Both the position numbers and the translations under genes were made by a program. Below, piece after piece: positions 1 through 6,208 of a DNA stretch of 6,208 nt (positions are counted from its first letter, which is position 1; every line of letters begins with the position of its first letter). The notes below the pieces were generated by a model. That model saw only the letters and a list, made by a program, of their open reading frames with translations. It searched no databases and was not told the DNA's origin. This DNA is from a bacterium (GTDB lineage: Bacteria; Coprothermobacterota; Coprothermobacteria; Coprothermobacterales; JAADFF01): the NCBI GenBank assembly GCA_027063755.1, contig JAMORD010000114.1, positions 1 through 6,208 on the forward strand. The letters run 5' to 3'.

Positions 1-5
1 GAGTT

Positions 6-683
6 GTGTTGTATGTAACTAGTATTTATAAAAAAATGTGGTGTCAGTTAATGTTGAACTGGTGGGTACTGGCCTTGACATTTGTTTTGTTGGTGCCCAC
101 CTTATTGTTGAGTGTGTATTTTCACGGCGGGACGTCGTATTATTCTCTTGATAAAGCGAAAATTGTAGATGTTGTGAATATCATGTTTGTGTTTTTCAAT
201 ATGGTCTATTTGATACCGGTAATTACATTTCTCAGAACTTCAAACTTTGGAGAGATGTTTTTTGTGGGTAGAACTAATGTGAAAAATTATTTCTTTGTAT
301 CATCAATGGCAGCTATTGTGAGTATATTGGTTATAGGATTGATATCCCTGTGTGTTATAAGTTCTTTGACGCTATTTAGTATGATGTATCTGTTATTTGT
401 ATCAACGATGTCAGTGTGGGTATATCTGTCAGCCTATATATTCCAGCTTTTAAAGGTTCCAACAGGCTTTGATGGAATGATGGCAAGTGGTGTTGCTTTA
501 TTCATGATGAATTATCTCTATAGCATATATTCCTATTCCAAGATATTAGCGTTTTCATTATCTGTACTGGGGATAGTGATGTATGTACTGACGCCCCACC
601 TGAAGCATGCAGATAGGTTTGTAGAGGCAGATAAATTTACTACTTCTATATTTCCAAATAATTCGCTTTGGTATTTTAAATAG
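6..683 (+). CDS. Multi-pass membrane protein, probable ABC-2-type permease (5' end at window edge)
   Basis: The 225-residue reading begins with GTG at position 6, but the frame is open to the window edge, so the true start may lie upstream. The protein is very hydrophobic. A short basic/aromatic N-terminus precedes a first helix at about residues 18-38. Further helices lie at about 56-76, 95-118, 120-147, 158-175 and 178-195, and the C-terminus is polar. Six helices with a short N-terminal cytoplasmic lead is the usual ABC-2 permease layout. No catalytic motif is visible. It lies 78 bp upstream of the radical SAM gene on the same strand, and an ABC ATPase is encoded two genes on, so it is probably a membrane subunit of that exporter or immunity transporter. 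The permease assignment rests on topology and context, not on a recognised signature. An unrelated integral membrane protein remains possible. Confidence 0.6.
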   Translation: MLYVTSIYKKMWCQLMLNWWVLALTFVLLVPTLLLSVYFHGGTSYYSLDKAKIVDVVNIMFVFFNMVYLIPVITFLRTSNFGEMFFVGRTNVKNYFFVSSMAAIVSILVIGLISLCVISSLTLFSMMYLLFVSTMSVWVYLSAYIFQLLKVPTGFDGMMASGVALFMMNYLYSIYSYSKILAFSLSVLGIVMYVLTPHLKHADRFVEADKFTTSIFPNNSLWYFK

Positions 684-761: not shown

Positions 762-2135
762 GTGAAACGTAAATCTGTACTACTTCACCAACCTGATAGA
801 ACTCTATGGACTTTTCAGTCCGATATTGAAGTTCTTGATGGTAAGCTGTTGGATACCAAAGGTTTTGGATATATCAAGTTGTATATAAATACAGTGGCTG
901 GAGATTTTTTGGAGATACTCTCACAGGTTGGTAATGTTGAGGACGCTTATGAGAAGATGGCAGATAAATACGATGTTTCTATAGAAGAAGTAAGGGAAAA
1001 GTTTGCTCCTTTTATCCGGCAGCTGAAGGAGTATGGCTTTGAGGTTAATAATCCCGGGCTTTATCAGTGGGATATACGTGGTAGCAGAGAATATCATTTA
1101 CCAATACATCTTGCTTTAGAACTTACTTATTCTTGTAATCTACGGTGTAAACATTGTTATAACAGATCGGGTAGTGATAGAAGGGTATTTATGGATTATG
1201 AGAAGTTCAAGAGACTTGTGGATAATTCTGTTGAGATAGGAGTTGTGGAATTTGAAATAACAGGTGGTGAACCGACGGTTCATCCAAGGTTTTTGGATAT
1301 GGTGGAGTACATTCTGCAGAAGGAAGTTTTCTCTGTAGCCATTCTAAGTAATGGAACATTGTGGACGGAAGAGTGGGTTAAGAGACTCTTGCCATATAAA
1401 GATAAAGTTTTAGTGCAAATTGATCTTCACGGACTTGACAAAGAATATGTTGCTTGGTTTACTGGATGGGAACATAGTTTAGAACGTCAGAAGCGGACAA
1501 TAGAGCTGTTTTCCAAATATGGTATACCTTTTAGAGTTGTAGCGGTGATTACTCCTAAGTCTGTAAAGGATATGCCGGAAATACTTGCATATGCAAAAGA
1601 GAAGGGAGCTGTTTCTTCTGGCATTTCTATTCCTATGCCTATGGGAAGAGCAGAAGATTATGAGAAAGAAATACTCTTTTCCCCTGAAGAAATGTCGGAA
1701 TATATGAAAATATACGAAGAACAAAAATCTCAATATGGTATGTTTATGTATGATCTGAGAGATATATCGGATAAGGATAAGATAAACTGTGGGGTTGGGG
1801 ACAATTTGAGTATTACACCGGATTTTGGTGTAAAAATATGTAGTATGTCAGATTTTGAGTTTGGAAGAATATCAGACTATGAATTTTCTTGGGTTGATTA
1901 TGTTAAAAATATTGATTTGCCTGGGATTTTGAAGAGTACAAAGGCACCTGGTAAAGATGAAAGCTGTAGCAGGTGTAATGATGTGGGAACGGCTGCTTTC
2001 TGTTATGGTTGTATTACCCGTGGTGTAAAGAAAGCGTTGGAAGATCCAGATAGGTGCCATTGGATAAAGGGAGCAGGTAAGGAATTGTGGGAACTTGTAG
2101 AGAAGGTAAGGAAATTGCAATATAGTGATGTTTGA
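762..2135 (+). CDS. Radical SAM/SPASM peptide-modifying enzyme with N-terminal PqqD-like domain
   Basis: The 457-residue protein starts at GTG 762, chosen from the SD at 746-752. Residues 1 to about 95 resemble PqqD/RRE domains, which bind the leader of a precursor peptide: a beta-rich start, then helices containing NTVAGDFLEIL and an acidic YDVSIEEV segment. The radical SAM core carries CNLRCKHC with C125, C129 and C132, the CxxxCxxC ligands of the [4Fe-4S] cluster that cleaves S-adenosylmethionine. The GGEP motif is at 168-171. The C-terminus has a SPASM-like cysteine set for auxiliary iron-sulfur clusters: C343, C360, C402, C405, C414, C417 and C432. The CxxC-x8-CxxC spacing differs somewhat from the usual SPASM pattern. 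Such enzymes install thioether or carbon-carbon links or epimerise residues in ribosomal peptides. The chemistry here cannot be read from sequence, and no precursor is evident. ABC transporter genes flank it. It is cytoplasmic and expected to be oxygen-sensitive. Confidence 0.9.
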   Translation: MKRKSVLLHQPDRTLWTFQSDIEVLDGKLLDTKGFGYIKLYINTVAGDFLEILSQVGNVEDAYEKMADKYDVSIEEVREKFAPFIRQLKEYGFEVNNPGLYQWDIRGSREYHLPIHLALELTYSCNLRCKHCYNRSGSDRRVFMDYEKFKRLVDNSVEIGVVEFEITGGEPTVHPRFLDMVEYILQKEVFSVAILSNGTLWTEEWVKRLLPYKDKVLVQIDLHGLDKEYVAWFTGWEHSLERQKRTIELFSKYGIPFRVVAVITPKSVKDMPEILAYAKEKGAVSSGISIPMPMGRAEDYEKEILFSPEEMSEYMKIYEEQKSQYGMFMYDLRDISDKDKINCGVGDNLSITPDFGVKICSMSDFEFGRISDYEFSWVDYVKNIDLPGILKSTKAPGKDESCSRCNDVGTAAFCYGCITRGVKKALEDPDRCHWIKGAGKELWELVEKVRKLQYSDV

Positions 2136-2146
2136 TGTAGTGTCTA

Positions 2147-2152
2147 TATAAT
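2147..2152 (+). promoter_or_regulatory. Possible internal -10 box (TATAAT) ahead of the ABC ATPase
   Basis: A perfect TATAAT lies just after the radical SAM stop codon, in the 144-bp gap before the ATPase. No good -35 exists at 16-18 bp (the hexamers there resemble AGTGAT). In an AT-rich genome this may be chance. If used, it would give the transporter genes expression independent of the maturase, with a leader of about 120 nt. Confidence 0.25.
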
Positions 2153-2264
2153 GCTATTTAGTGTAATAGTTGTTTGGTTTTCTAAGAAAGCTAGTAATGT
2201 TTTGTTAGAGAATCGGCAATTGAAATAGGGAATGGGCTGAGGTGTTTGTCCGGAGTTGAATGAA

Positions 2265-2271
2265 GAGGTGA
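2265..2271 (+). promoter_or_regulatory. Ribosome binding site setting the ABC ATPase start
   Basis: GAGGTGA lies 8 nt before ATG 2280. An upstream in-frame TTG at 2256 has only CGGAG directly against it, with no spacing, so ATG 2280 is the better start. Confidence 0.75.
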
Positions 2272-2279
2272 TATTTTCG

Positions 2280-2936
2280 ATGGTAAAGATAGAGGTCAAA
2301 GAGTTGCATAAGATGTTTGATGACAAGCATGTTTTGAAGGGGATATCTTTTACCCTTGAGGGTCCAGGGGTGTATGGGCTTTTTGGTCCCAATGGTGCAG
2401 GAAAAACAACACTAATAAGGTGTGTTACTGGTGTCTTTGCTCCTTCTTCTGGAGAAGTGTATGTAGAGGGGAATCTCTCCTATATGCCAGAAAAGAATTT
2501 GGTATGGAAGTTTATGAAGGCGCGGACCAATATAAAAGTCTTTAGGGAGATGTTTGATGGCAAAGGAGACTTAAGTAAGGTATTTGAGGTGGCAAGATAT
2601 TTGGGAATGGAGGATGAACTAGATAGATTAGCGGGTAGGCTGTCAAAGGGTACACAGCGTAAACTGACATTTCTCATGTCTCTTGCCATGGGAGGAGATA
2701 TATTTATACTTGATGAACCACTATCAGGACTTGATGTTATTGCCCGTAAGCGTATGAGAGAGGTTATAGCACAACTTGCAGATGAGGGTAAGATGGTTAT
2801 CATATCTACTCATGAGTTAAGGGAGATGGATGGCCTTGTAAAGAAGGCGGTGTTTATAAAAGGAGGAAAGATACTTGATGTCAAAGAAAAGGGTGAGATG
2901 TCTTGGGAAGAGGCGTTTTTAGCGCTGGTAGAGTAG
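2280..2936 (+). CDS. ABC transporter ATP-binding protein
   Basis: The 218-residue protein is a single nucleotide-binding domain of normal length for ABC-2-type exporters. Walker A is GPNGAGKT at 36-43 with K42. The signature loop is LSKGTQ at 121-126, a common variant of LSGGQ in this subfamily. Walker B ends in D145-E146, followed by PLSGLD. The H-loop histidine is H178 in STHE. The Q-loop region reads YMPEKN, with glutamate where many ABC proteins have glutamine; this variant is familiar in ABC-2 ATPases. It hydrolyses ATP at the inner face of the membrane to drive a permease, most likely the gene that starts 2 nt after its stop and/or the permease at the left edge. Context suggests export of, or immunity to, a peptide made by the radical SAM enzyme, which is inference. 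All catalytic motifs are intact. Confidence 0.93.
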   Translation: MVKIEVKELHKMFDDKHVLKGISFTLEGPGVYGLFGPNGAGKTTLIRCVTGVFAPSSGEVYVEGNLSYMPEKNLVWKFMKARTNIKVFREMFDGKGDLSKVFEVARYLGMEDELDRLAGRLSKGTQRKLTFLMSLAMGGDIFILDEPLSGLDVIARKRMREVIAQLADEGKMVIISTHELREMDGLVKKAVFIKGGKILDVKEKGEMSWEEAFLALVE

Positions 2937-2938
2937 CA

Positions 2939-3472
2939 ATGCTACTAAGGATATGGTGGCAGATAGGTAGAGGTAAGCTGTTATTGGCTCTGTTTATAGG
3001 TGTAGTATTATTTGTCCAGATATGGGTAATGTCTAGTATAGTTGGGGGTGTAAGGACATATATGCCCGTCATATCGCTTGTTTTCTCTGTTATTCCTATA
3101 TTTTTGCTGATAGATGTCTTTGCCGTTGCCCGTGATTTCTTGGAATATATTCTTGTATATGTCAAGGTTAGTATGTTAGAGGTTGTTCTTAGCACAGCTA
3201 TGTTTCTTATGGTTGTTCCACTTCCCCTGATATTTGTAAATATAGTGTGGTATATGTGTATGTTTTCCCTTATGATAGTGTTTTCCACAATTCTATGGAG
3301 GGTGTCATATGTGGTGTTTCGGTATCTTACCATGATACTAGTGGCCTTGCTGTATGTAGTGGCAGTGTTGTATATTGCCGATACTATGCCCATAGTGTCC
3401 TTGTTGGTGATGGTTCTGTTTTTGATGTATGCACGGAATATAAAGGTAGAGCAAGCCCTTCTAACGTATTAG
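2939..3472 (+). CDS. Multi-pass membrane protein, probable ABC-2 permease, possibly cut short by an amber codon
   Basis: The 177-residue protein starts at ATG 2939, 2 nt after the ATPase stop, which suits translational coupling. An alternative TTG at 2903, preceded by AAGGGTGAG, would add 12 residues and overlap the ATPase, so it cannot be excluded. A basic start (LLRIWWQIGRGK) precedes hydrophobic spans at about residues 13-33, 41-63, 79-101, 102-117, 127-147 and 150-164. The tail is amphipathic. Immediate linkage to the ATPase makes it the likely transmembrane subunit. The TAG stop is followed in the same frame by 40 sense codons with a strongly hydrophobic run and a charged end, so the ancestral protein may have been 218 residues with one more helix. 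No sequence signature names the substrate. Confidence 0.75.
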   Translation: MLLRIWWQIGRGKLLLALFIGVVLFVQIWVMSSIVGGVRTYMPVISLVFSVIPIFLLIDVFAVARDFLEYILVYVKVSMLEVVLSTAMFLMVVPLPLIFVNIVWYMCMFSLMIVFSTILWRVSYVVFRYLTMILVALLYVVAVLYIADTMPIVSLLVMVLFLMYARNIKVEQALLTY

Positions 3473-3595
3473 AAGAAGGTAATATGCCTCTCTCTAATGG
3501 GTTTGGCATTGATGTGGAGTGCGACATTGCTTATGTTGTGTGAGAGAAGTATTAGGGAGGATAGGAGAAAAGATGAATTTACAGATGTTAGGTAA
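3473..3595 (+). other. In-frame continuation of the permease beyond its TAG stop
   Basis: After TAG at 3470-3472 the permease frame stays open to TAA at 3593-3595. The 40 codons encode a lysine pair, about 20 hydrophobic residues containing LSLMGLALMW, then a very charged tail (ERSIREDRRKDE). This is the shape of a terminal membrane helix with a cytoplasmic tail. It may be the lost C-terminus of the permease, or a separate tiny membrane peptide starting at ATG 3497 or 3512, for which no good SD is seen. The end overlaps the next gene by 23 nt. T/G-rich DNA often translates to hydrophobic residues by chance, so confidence is limited. Confidence 0.35.
3554..3568 (+). promoter_or_regulatory. Twin SD-like sites before the small membrane protein
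   Basis: AGGGAGG (3554-3560) is 12 nt and AGGAGA (3563-3568) is 4 nt before ATG 3573. Together they support ATG 3573 as the start rather than GTG 3519, whose extra residues (rich in Cys and Arg) look non-coding. Confidence 0.6.
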
Positions 3596-4052
3596 GATAG
3601 TGGATTACTTTCAAACTGAAAACATATGGTTTTCCTTGTTGTTGTTTATTAAGGCGTGGATAGAGATATTAGTTGGTATGTATGTTATTACTTATAATGA
3701 AGAGTTATCATTTATTAATGTGAATTTTCCCGATATTGTGGATGCTTCTTTTATTTTGCTAATTGTAGTTGTTACAGCTGCTGTGGTTGATGGAATTTTG
3801 AATGTTACTATTTATTTGGGTAAACTTGTGTTAAATAATGGGTATTATTTTAATAATAAGGAAGAACGGATATGGGCTCTTCTGCTTTTGTGTATATTGG
3901 TGATATGTGATGTTTTTTTGCTGATTTTTTCATATAAAATGCTTACTATCTTGATTATTAGAGATCTTTCTCTGGAGCTCCAAGGTGTTCTTGCTATTTT
4001 GCTTGTTTTGCTTTTTCAATTTAATAGCAATACATATCAAAGAGAGAAATGA
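3573..4052 (+). CDS. Small integral membrane protein of unknown function
   Basis: The 159-residue protein starts at ATG 3573, behind two SD-like sites. I do not recognise the family. It has about four hydrophobic spans (roughly residues 17-41, 58-82, 102-121 and 134-151). A polar loop between the first two contains NEELSFINVNFPD, and a loop with an asparagine-rich NNKEER segment precedes the third. The CPBP (CAAX-type) protease motifs seen in some radical SAM peptide loci are absent. It uses more ATT and TTA codons than the permease just upstream. As the last gene of the operon it could be an immunity protein, an accessory transporter subunit or a sensor. All of these are inference from position only. 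Confidence 0.65.
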   Translation: MNLQMLGKIVDYFQTENIWFSLLLFIKAWIEILVGMYVITYNEELSFINVNFPDIVDASFILLIVVVTAAVVDGILNVTIYLGKLVLNNGYYFNNKEERIWALLLLCILVICDVFLLIFSYKMLTILIIRDLSLELQGVLAILLVLLFQFNSNTYQREK

Positions 4053-4080: not shown

Positions 4081-4911
4081 TTACAGTTTTTCTATTATTA
4101 ATAGTTCTTTCCATCCTCTGCGGGCATTTCCTCTGCTGTTTATAAATCTGCTGGTTTCTATTTCTACTATTGTAAAATCGCGGTACAGTTCTCTTATTAT
4201 TGGGCTGTCAGAGTTTGATAATATGACAAATACACCCTGTGATGAAAGTTTTTGGAAGGTATCTCGTAGTCTAATATGGTCTTCTATACCAAAGTTGTCT
4301 GATGTGTAAGAAGTAAACTTACTACTGCCATCTGATGGCAAGTATGGTGGGTCAAAGTATACAAGGTCTCCCGGCTTAGCTAATAGAGATACTTTTTCAA
4401 AATCTTCATTGAGTATGGTAATGTCATTATTTGATAAGTAGTTATGCACTGCCAGAATATTATCTCTGTCTACTATCTTGGGGTTTTTATATCTTCCCAT
4501 CGGTACATTGAATTTACCCTGTTTATTAACCCTCCACAGTCCATTGAAGCATGTGCGGTTGAGGTATATAAACCTGGCAGCTTTTTCAATATTGTCTTTT
4601 GGCAAGAATTTATCTCTTATGTAGTAATAGTACTCTTTGCTGTGATGAGATTTCATATGTTCCAGTAGCTCTATAAGCTTGTATGGGTTTTCTTTGATCA
4701 CCCTGTAAGCATTTATGAGTTCTGAATTAGTATCTGAGATAATGGCCGTTTTAGGTTGTAGATGAAATAGCAGTGCCCCACCACCAACAAAGGGTTCTAT
4801 GTATGTGTTCCAGTGTTTGGGTAAATACTGTGTTATTATCCCAATGAGTTTCCTTTTGCCACCAGCCCATTTGACAAAGGGTTTGGGTAAAATATCTGTC
4901 TTGTCTATCAT
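4081..4911 (-). CDS. dpnM: Dam/DpnM-family DNA adenine-N6 methyltransferase (D12 class), predicted GATC-specific
   Basis: The 276-residue protein has the usual length for the D12 class. It carries motif X (KWAGGK, 14-19) and the SAM-binding motif I (EPFVGGGAL, 39-47). The conserved FNGLWRVN block is at 122-129, followed by FNVPMG. The catalytic motif IV is DPPY at 187-190, and SNSD is at 232-235. Motif I before IV, the FNGLWRVN block and the segment FTSYTSDNFG match DpnM/Dam enzymes, which methylate the adenine of GATC and protect host DNA. Specificity is inferred from this similarity and from the DpnII-type nuclease nearby. Some D12 enzymes (M.EcoRV) read GATATC instead. No SD precedes the ATG. 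A TATAAT six bases upstream suggests a leaderless transcript. The gene converges on the peptide operon with a 28-bp gap and diverges from the second methyltransferase with 16 bp between starts. All motifs are intact. Confidence 0.93.
   Translation of the reverse strand: MIDKTDILPKPFVKWAGGKRKLIGIITQYLPKHWNTYIEPFVGGGALLFHLQPKTAIISDTNSELINAYRVIKENPYKLIELLEHMKSHHSKEYYYYIRDKFLPKDNIEKAARFIYLNRTCFNGLWRVNKQGKFNVPMGRYKNPKIVDRDNILAVHNYLSNNDITILNEDFEKVSLLAKPGDLVYFDPPYLPSDGSSKFTSYTSDNFGIEDHIRLRDTFQKLSSQGVFVILSNSDSPIIRELYRDFTIVEIETSRFINSRGNARRGWKELLIIEKL
4871..4898 (+). promoter_or_regulatory. Weak candidate promoter for the second methyltransferase and nuclease
   Basis: TTGACA at 4871-4876 and TATCTG at 4893-4898 are 16 bp apart, inside the 5' end of the opposing Dam gene. 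The -35 matches perfectly but the -10 is poor. The expected start is near 4905, giving a leader of about 23 nt without an SD. TTGACA also encodes part of the Dam motif X strand in reverse, so chance is likely. Confidence 0.25.
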
Positions 4912-4925
4912 GCTATCATTATAGC
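4905..4925. repeat. Direct heptamer repeat and small inverted repeat between divergent methyltransferase genes
   Basis: CTATCAT occurs at 4905-4911 and again at 4913-4919, 8 bp apart. GCTAT-CATT-ATAGC at 4912-4925 is a perfect 5-bp inverted repeat around 4 bases. Together they cover the Dam start codon and its -10 box, where a bound protein would block Dam transcription. No separate controller gene is visible, so any regulator would be a methyltransferase itself or a factor encoded elsewhere. The repeats are short and AT-rich. Confidence 0.35.
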
Positions 4926-4948
4926 AAATGGAAAAACTGGACTGTGAA
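4918..4948 (-). promoter_or_regulatory. Candidate promoter for the Dam-family methyltransferase, leaderless
   Basis: On the minus strand a perfect TATAAT (plus 4918-4923) lies 19 bp downstream of TTCACA (plus 4943-4948). Six bases separate the -10 from the ATG at 4911, so transcription would begin at or very near the start codon. No SD is present, which fits a leaderless mRNA. The promoter overlaps the first codons of the divergent methyltransferase. Confidence 0.5.
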
Positions 4949-5767
4949 AAACTGATATCTCAAGTGGGTAGGGGCACGATAGATATATCTATGTTTAATG
5001 CTCCCGAAGATGACAATGTGCCGAAAATTAGTGTTTGGTCTTTTCCCGATAGGGGATCTTGGTCTACTCATAAGGGAGACTATCCCGGCAATTTTTCTCC
5101 ATATATCCCAAGGTATGTGATGAAACTATACAGCAGAGAAGGTGATCTTGTCCTTGATCCTATGGTTGGCAGTGGCACAACCCTTGTGGAGGCAAAACTG
5201 CTTGGGAGAAGGGCTATAGGTGTAGATATAAATATAGATGCTTTGAAGGTTGCTGCATCCCGTGTATGGTATACCCATCCTGAGGGATGTGAGGGTATAG
5301 AGATTTATCGTGGGGATGTAAGAAAACTTGACGGTATAAAAGATGAAAGTATTGACCTTGTTATTACTCATCCGCCCTATGCCAATATCATTAAATATTC
5401 TAAAGAAAGTGGTGACTTATCTCGCTTGGGGCCTAAGAGGTTTTTAAAAGCCATGGAAGATGTTGCTTTAGAAATATACAGGGTTTTAAAACCTGGAAAG
5501 TATGCCGCTATTTTGATAGGTGATACCCGTAAGAGTAGGCACTATGTGCCCCTTGCATATGGACTCATGAGAAGGTTTTTACATGTGGGATTTGTTCTCA
5601 AAGAAGATATCATTAAGGTGCAACATAATATGAGGGGTACTATAACAAGGTGGAGAGGTAGATATGATTTTATGCTTATTGCCCATGAGCATCTGTTTGT
5701 GTTTTACAAACCCGTTAGCGATGAAGAGAGAAAGAAACTCAAGCTGTCAGGGAGTGACCTTATATGA
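4928..5767 (+). CDS. Second DNA methyltransferase (amino-methyltransferase with HPPY motif) of the restriction-modification system
   Basis: The 279-residue protein starts at ATG 4928, the first possible start, because an in-frame TAG lies at 4922. There is no SD. An N-terminal motif X-like region (FSPYIPRYVMKLY) leads into SAM-binding motif I, DPMVGSGTT at 77-85. A GVD turn at 98-100 and motif IV, HPPY at 148-151, follow. Then come a helix with YRVLKPGK and a strand with AILIGDTR. (D/N/S/H)PPY marks methyltransferases that modify exocyclic amino groups (N6-adenine or N4-cytosine). Motif I precedes IV with only about 65 residues between and no large target-recognition insert. DpnA, the second enzyme of the classical DpnII system, has the opposite order, so this is a different family. 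Its stop overlaps the nuclease ATG as ATGA, tying it to that gene. Compact RNA methyltransferases share the layout and are the main alternative. Target sequence unknown. Confidence 0.85.
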   Translation: MEKLDCEKLISQVGRGTIDISMFNAPEDDNVPKISVWSFPDRGSWSTHKGDYPGNFSPYIPRYVMKLYSREGDLVLDPMVGSGTTLVEAKLLGRRAIGVDINIDALKVAASRVWYTHPEGCEGIEIYRGDVRKLDGIKDESIDLVITHPPYANIIKYSKESGDLSRLGPKRFLKAMEDVALEIYRVLKPGKYAAILIGDTRKSRHYVPLAYGLMRRFLHVGFVLKEDIIKVQHNMRGTITRWRGRYDFMLIAHEHLFVFYKPVSDEERKKLKLSGSDLI

Positions 5768-6208
5768 ATCTTGATGTGATAAAGTGTATTCTTGGTAAAG
5801 AAGCTACATATGAGGATTATGTGGATTATCTCCTGAATACTGTGCAAACGGCAAGGCCGGGTCGTTATTTTGTAGATTGGAATAAGGTAAAGAAGAATGT
5901 TGGTAAATATGCCCCAGAGATAAAGCTTCTTGAGTATGTATTTATGGATGATGGCAAAGATAGGGTAGAAAAACTGAGGGAAGTTTTTAACTGTTGGAAA
6001 AATAAAGAGAAGTTGGGTAAAGCCCTTATTCTGCTTGTTGCATATCGCTATGGTAATAATGGTTTTTATCTTAGGATAGAGGATGGAGTAATGAAGGTAG
6101 ATGTCAAAGATGTTGATAGTCTTATACTGTTTGCCAATGAGACAGGCTTAATTAAAGAACTAACCGTTGAGAATATTATGGACTATGTCACTGGTGTTGA
6201 GGTTGGGC
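5764..6208 (+). CDS. DpnII-family type II restriction endonuclease (GATC), truncated by window edge
   Basis: The frame opens at ATG 5764 within ATGA, overlapping the methyltransferase stop by 4 nt, and is open for 148 codons to the window end. The final visible residues, DYVTGVEVG (140-148), match the conserved central motif of DpnII/MboI-type endonucleases, which in the family continues into a D-T-N...R-K-N-R stretch that forms part of the active region. DpnII-type enzymes are about 280-300 residues, so roughly half is present and the main catalytic part lies beyond the edge. The N-terminal half is mixed alpha/beta with an aromatic- and lysine-rich start and the hydrophobic LGKALILLVAYRYG, similar in character to the family's N-terminal region. 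The expected activity is cleavage at unmethylated GATC. Translational coupling after a methyltransferase would let protection precede cutting. Recognition rests mainly on the terminal motif plus the Dam-family neighbour. Confidence 0.82.
   Translation, partial: MNLDVIKCILGKEATYEDYVDYLLNTVQTARPGRYFVDWNKVKKNVGKYAPEIKLLEYVFMDDGKDRVEKLREVFNCWKNKEKLGKALILLVAYRYGNNGFYLRIEDGVMKVDVKDVDSLILFANETGLIKELTVENIMDYVTGVEVG

Follow-up and report, generated by a model that had tools for sequence, protein, structure and literature searches.

Comparison with described systems

Subtilosin A (sbo-alb) is the closest described system to the operon analysed here. Both have a PqqD/RRE-radical SAM-SPASM enzyme, an ABC ATPase with membrane proteins and a short leader, and the subtilosin A donor cysteines (C4, C7 and C13; PMC8172795) follow the C-x2-C-x5-C spacing that recurs in one peptide of a sister species. 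The two differ in that our maturase, at 130.8 bits, is far from the AlbA cut-off of 850, that two precursors are predicted here instead of one, that a permease gene would stand between precursors and maturase, and that the window (the whole 6.2-kb stretch of DNA analysed) has no AlbE/AlbF-like peptidase and no PF11420 match was found. Thuricin CD-type systems (TrnC/TrnD) likewise combine two precursor peptides, radical SAM enzyme(s) and ABC transport, but thuricin peptides have C-x3-C-x3-C spacing and here there is one maturase, not two. The initial annotation had compared the locus with yyd and skf. The alb type proved closer than yyd, and the skf comparison holds to the extent that, of solved structures, SkfB comes nearest in sequence and that it neighbours our enzyme in the maturase tree, with weak support. 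By contrast, the skf system forms a single thioether and includes a CAAX-type protease and one precursor, and SkfB carries a twitch domain and not a seven-cysteine SPASM (PMC8172795).

On Anaerococcus prevotii plasmid pAPRE01 (L023:7558-11261), a 41-aa peptide is encoded together with a radical SAM enzyme, an ABC ATPase and two membrane proteins. This is the same gene set, with an enzyme of the same clade at 30% identity, but the pAPRE01 peptide directly precedes the maturase and has C-x2-C repeats, and a two-component regulator lies downstream. The passages considered from Murphy et al. 2011 (PMC3132745) report the neighbouring Apre_1837 cluster of pAPRE01, distinct from this operon, and a different radical SAM pair in Petrotoga, and those from a survey of anaerobes (PMC4289311) give similar candidates. 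This operon is described in neither set of passages.

The operon and its contig

The window spans the whole of contig G000:C114 in its own draft genome, which comprises 1.5 Mb in 251 contigs and is 88% complete. The operon genes all run in one direction, as follows.

1..5, +, left contig edge; on contig L220 of the sister species, the pair of precursor peptide genes stops 24 bases short of this point
6..683, +, perm1, 225-aa membrane protein; GTG-start ORF, 87% identical to its G001 (sister species) counterpart over 175 aa
762..2135, +, PqqD(RRE)-radical SAM-SPASM maturase, 457 aa, AlbA-like (Pfam PqqD and Radical_SAM; NCBIfam AlbA)
2280..2936, +, ABC transporter ATPase, 218 aa (PF00005, E 2e-19)
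2939..3472, +, perm2, membrane protein of 177 aa before an in-frame TAG (ORF map)
3573..4052, +, third membrane protein, 159 aa (ORF map), with 23 bases shared with the extended perm2 frame

The ORF map bears out the earlier description of a codirectional ATPase and membrane proteins with a permease-like gene 5' of them, and a Pfam scan of the window agrees with it that no peptidase gene is present; of AlbE/AlbF-type peptidases in particular there are none in the window, where a restriction-modification system comes after the operon. This system is a DpnII-type set (window 4081-6207) that adjoins the operon on its 3' side in a divergent arrangement, with a Dam methylase on the minus strand, a second DNA methylase and a DpnII endonuclease interrupted by the right contig edge. 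An Rfam scan of the window gave no match.

The initial annotation saw no precursor, and indeed no credible cysteine-rich ORF of that kind occurs in the window. The contig begins 5 bases before perm1, so that this is probably an edge effect, and the sister species (below) suggests that the precursor lies off the contig and is not absent. The left end of the window overlaps no other contig of the genome.

An AlbA-like maturase

The maturase start was confirmed as the GTG at 762, with a Shine-Dalgarno (SD) sequence, AAGGAGG, at 746-752. The PqqD-like N-terminus that had been recognised by eye corresponds to PF05402 at residues 41-93 (E 5e-7, 30.3 bits against a Pfam cut-off of 23.4), and the radical SAM core is matched in Pfam at E 5e-28. 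The CxxxCxxC motif of this core is C125-x3-C129-x2-C132, and the seven C-terminal cysteines are C343, C360, C402, C405, C414, C417 and C432; both sets are invariant in the aligned relatives, which is far beyond chance. The SPASM model PF13186 scores above its cut-off in one relative (P0003) and below it in the window protein.

Of the 18,950 NCBIfam models, that of AlbA, the subtilosin A maturase, fits the enzyme best (130.8 bits, E 4.5e-38, residues 46-437); it was also the top model for all five relatives scanned. The score is far under the 850-bit cut-off of the AlbA equivalog (NF012164), and the enzyme is therefore AlbA-like and no AlbA equivalog. The closest solved structure by sequence is that of the sactisynthase SkfB (6efn, E 9e-18). 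An AlphaFold model from the single sequence had a mean pLDDT of 46 and was set aside. It is extremely improbable that this PqqD-fused radical SAM enzyme acts on a cofactor or small molecule: its core does give weak matches to NirJ, AhbD and MoaA models, but AlbA is the best model across residues 46-437, the PqqD domain is above cut-off, and conserved peptides adjoin the enzymes of relatives as well as perm1 in the sister species. The profile search thus places the enzyme nearest to a peptide maturase and not in a family with a non-peptide substrate.

Close relatives of the maturase are rare, with one further clear case in a broad sample of 386 genomes. More were found in one order of a phylum that we guess to be Thermotogota, and others on pAPRE01 and on a human-gut scaffold (MT836680.1, unverified). 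A scan of genome contigs yielded one remote radical SAM protein, and IMG/VR scans gave general radical SAM matches only. Identity to the relatives is only 27-36%. In a tree of 29 rows, whose bootstrap is incompletely settled, the window enzyme groups with G088 and G474 and with the Anaerococcus, gut, G082 and Paraclostridium enzymes (support 90/95, branch unstarred), and G090 and G091 join next (88/84, likewise unstarred), which sets it among peptide-linked enzymes. pAPRE01 also encodes a TrnC-like enzyme, which the tree places well away from this clade.

Cysteine-rich peptides beside the relatives

Every relative found with an intact maturase (seven records, five distinct loci) has a peptide gene just 5' of the maturase, so the conserved small ORFs that the RiPP interpretation calls for lie beside these intact homologues. 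The peptides are 38-50 aa long, SD-preceded, and carry a C-x2-C-x2-C-x2-C motif and a Gly-rich hydrophobic tail, as listed here.

G088: MGNAGVIGPRAEYCSACNSCLICPISGAALSTAVAFVGLW
G090 and G091: METTLNPDYTSPESEVCYSCLGCIACFFPSLSGFGAFGIIGIADVE, plus further copies
G057 and G082: MPTPEMVTSDITCWSCLACAFCGLSFTVISALSGLSTAS
pAPRE01: MKPEIVAMGNGCKLCAGCTGCMFCGPSPAAGVGVAGFVGFF
Gut scaffold MT836680.1: MTNPEMTTLDIGCWGCLGCASCGIGVSLLSALSGANVI

Only in G090 is the distance to the maturase long, with the peptides ∼1.7 kb 5' of it. Downstream of the maturase come either an ABC ATPase with permease(s) or an ABC exporter. A peptide profile recovered the relatives' peptides with E values from 4e-9 to 4e-20, five of these peptides having been used to build it. 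As background, 3.1 Mb of strand contained seven ORFs with C-x2-C-x2-C-x2-C, one of them with an SD. No such peptide was found at any of the four relatives with broken maturases (G474, G475, G077 and Paraclostridium). Peptides accompanying intact enzymes are the pattern expected of an enzyme and its substrate, and this pairing supports such a relationship, the four broken cases being few and partly related.

Other peptide genes were noticed near some of these loci and elsewhere. In G082 (L031, oriented 4230-4634), two thuricin-like peptides (C-x3-C-x3-C-x3-C) lie 3' of the subtilosin-like peptide cluster, accompanied by two more radical SAM genes and ABC genes, and on pAPRE01 a thuricin-like cluster likewise adjoins the subtilosin-like one; the two sactipeptide types may travel as neighbours. 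On Vagococcus plasmid p12B2_p3 (L205), a 59-aa ORF at 3499-3678, directly 5' of a radical SAM gene, contains the internal repeat EPVVMCGTKYTKNTKASPNLEE twice and is a possible repeat-type RiPP precursor.

Probable precursor genes in the sister species

In the broad sample, perm1 has one close relative, at 87% protein identity, in G001, the only other member of the genus compared. This copy lies at one end of contig L220 (G001:C30), which is 5,600 bases long. Positions 1-527 of the window align with L220:5074-5600 at 92.4% identity and gap-free, from which it follows that the window begins 5 bases before the perm1 start codon. The 370 bases 5' of the G001 perm1 hold two peptide genes, each with a ribosome-binding site.

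L220:4712-4858, pepA, MPAPVIISDGNTTCNACVVSYVCVIGGFFSPIAGLANMAILMSLVNGA; SD-preceded, 5' of perm1
L220:4882-5049, pepB, (M)MAPKIISPASNGCSTCLTVCMGSGCWMGGYLCGGVAVGVGVVPVLATGLVLHVF; SD-preceded, 5' of perm1

The two have AP[KV]IIS as a common leader but different cores, pepA being the one with subtilosin A donor spacing. With a profile of the other peptides, pepA and pepB ranked first and second of 55 ORFs on L220, with weak E values of 0.04-0.06; neither matched PF11420 or any Pfam or NCBIfam precursor model. A comparable rule of cysteines plus SD selected three ORFs in 1.25 Mb of strand from G000, so that two adjacent ones at perm1 are unlikely to be there by chance. Further 5' on L220 (16-1572 and 2437-4424) are a Ro60-type vWA-domain protein gene on the opposite strand and lipoprotein-like genes.

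In the window's own genome, neither PF11420 nor the peptide profile, which did find positives elsewhere, detected peptides, the C-x2-C-x2-C-x2-C pattern at the DNA level had 28 matches of which none was in a credible small gene, and the 100 of 251 contigs read directly contained neither the peptides nor the sister's upstream genes. A weak pepA match in G000 falls within the gene of an MFS transporter, in a different frame, and was rejected, as was a profile match on G001:C28 (E 0.005) that is out of frame in a coding region. Since L220 stops inside perm1, no single contig in the genus shows peptides and maturase together; we infer from synteny that they would be joined in this genus and that the window's own species would have the peptides. 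The initial proposal of a RiPP operon thus gains support from small cysteine-rich ORFs beside homologues and, by synteny, beside perm1 in the sister species.

The linkages made could be ranthipeptide-type thioethers to the beta- or gamma-carbon, or carbon-carbon bonds, and not sactionines. SPASM enzymes have several chemistries, alpha and beta/gamma linkages being unreadable from sequence, the model of the ranthipeptide maturase PapB also matches several relatives, and the cysteine spacing differs among precursors. We nevertheless regard such cross-links as unlikely, given that every member scanned has AlbA as its top model, well above PapB, and that pepA has the subtilosin donor spacing.

Transport genes and state of the locus

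Perm1 starts with its GTG at base 6, so almost none of it is missing. It has no Pfam or NCBIfam match and is likely an ABC-2-type permease or an immunity protein. The third membrane protein, for which we assume an immunity or transport role, has no Pfam match, and the window permeases match neither the relatives' permeases in sequence nor anything in plasmids. The best NCBIfam model of the ATPase is TIGR03740, a lantibiotic-protection ATPase, at a score under the cut-off of that model. It is 38-42% identical to the maturase-adjacent ATPases of G088, G077, G474 and G475, which are among its best matches when all ABC ATPases of 103 genomes are compared; these matches point the same way as the maturase tree, placing the window with these relatives.

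A dedicated transport or immunity set, the PF00005 ATPase with its adjacent membrane proteins, is therefore present, and its predicted direction of transport is export. The resemblance to lantibiotic-protection ATPases, and the histidine kinase and response regulator adjoining the Anaerococcus relative, would fit a locus for resistance or signalling only, in which the peptide is a signal or the transporter protects against the peptides of others. We consider this highly unlikely, as a maturase with adjacent precursor genes implies production, and protection alone requires no maturase.

An in-frame TAG at 3470-3472 closes perm2, after which the frame stays open to a TAA at 3593-3595, and this 40-codon stretch has one further hydrophobic segment. 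With genome-wide usage, the codon score of 3473-3592 in the perm2 frame is 4.5, similar to perm2 itself, and those of the other frames are below -28; against the codon usage of membrane proteins alone the same extension scores -1.9, which is less clear. Reassignment of UAG was rejected, as TAG terminates 79 of 311 long ORFs in G000. The TAG would be either a nonsense mutation or a draft-assembly error, and the operon may accordingly be decaying or the draft in error.

A former sactipeptide operon now losing function here would be compatible with our preferred explanation of its origin. Besides the TAG in perm2, relatives often have broken copies of the cluster: the ABC ATPase of G088 is split by a transposase gene (L028 6139-7680), the radical SAM proteins of G474 and G475 are truncated with loss of the N-terminal part, the G077 maturase is frameshifted, and that of Paraclostridium is truncated and ends before the last auxiliary cysteines. 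However, the maturase, ATPase and perm1 are intact, perm1 is gap-free against the sister species at 92% DNA identity, and a lone stop codon may simply reflect an error of the draft. On balance we find decay or silencing rather improbable, if the least so of the alternatives considered.

Proposed mechanism and significance

The locus is probably a divergent, AlbA- or subtilosin-like RiPP operon of sactipeptide type. If its enzyme works as AlbA does (PMC8172795), the PqqD-like domain would bind the N-terminal leader shared by the two short cysteine-rich precursors predicted just 5' of perm1. An acceptor residue of the hydrophobic tail would then lose a hydrogen to the radical SAM centre, the SPASM clusters would help the oxidation of the radical, and the cysteines would close thioether bridges to the backbone. 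Export of the product and/or protection of the producer would fall to the ABC ATPase and permease(s). Leader cleavage and an antibacterial role of the product are likewise predicted.

More tentatively, we propose that one AlbA-like enzyme modifies two leader-sharing precursors with different cysteine spacing, and that a separate AlbA-like clade is tied to an unmodelled C-x2-C-repeat precursor family in Thermotogota-like genomes, Bacillota and this barely sampled phylum. If true, one leader with two cysteine spacings would be a test of how one maturase picks its cross-link partners.

The locus adds a divergent branch to the sactipeptide maturases, along with precursor sequences that escape the current Pfam and NCBIfam models. 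The majority of relatives are in apparently thermophilic bacteria, and heat-stable enzymes for structural work may therefore exist. The case also illustrates how the genome of a sister species can supply a "missing" precursor where an unlucky contig break has hidden it. Worth pursuing, in our view, are the layout of two peptides with one enzyme and the unmodelled precursor family.
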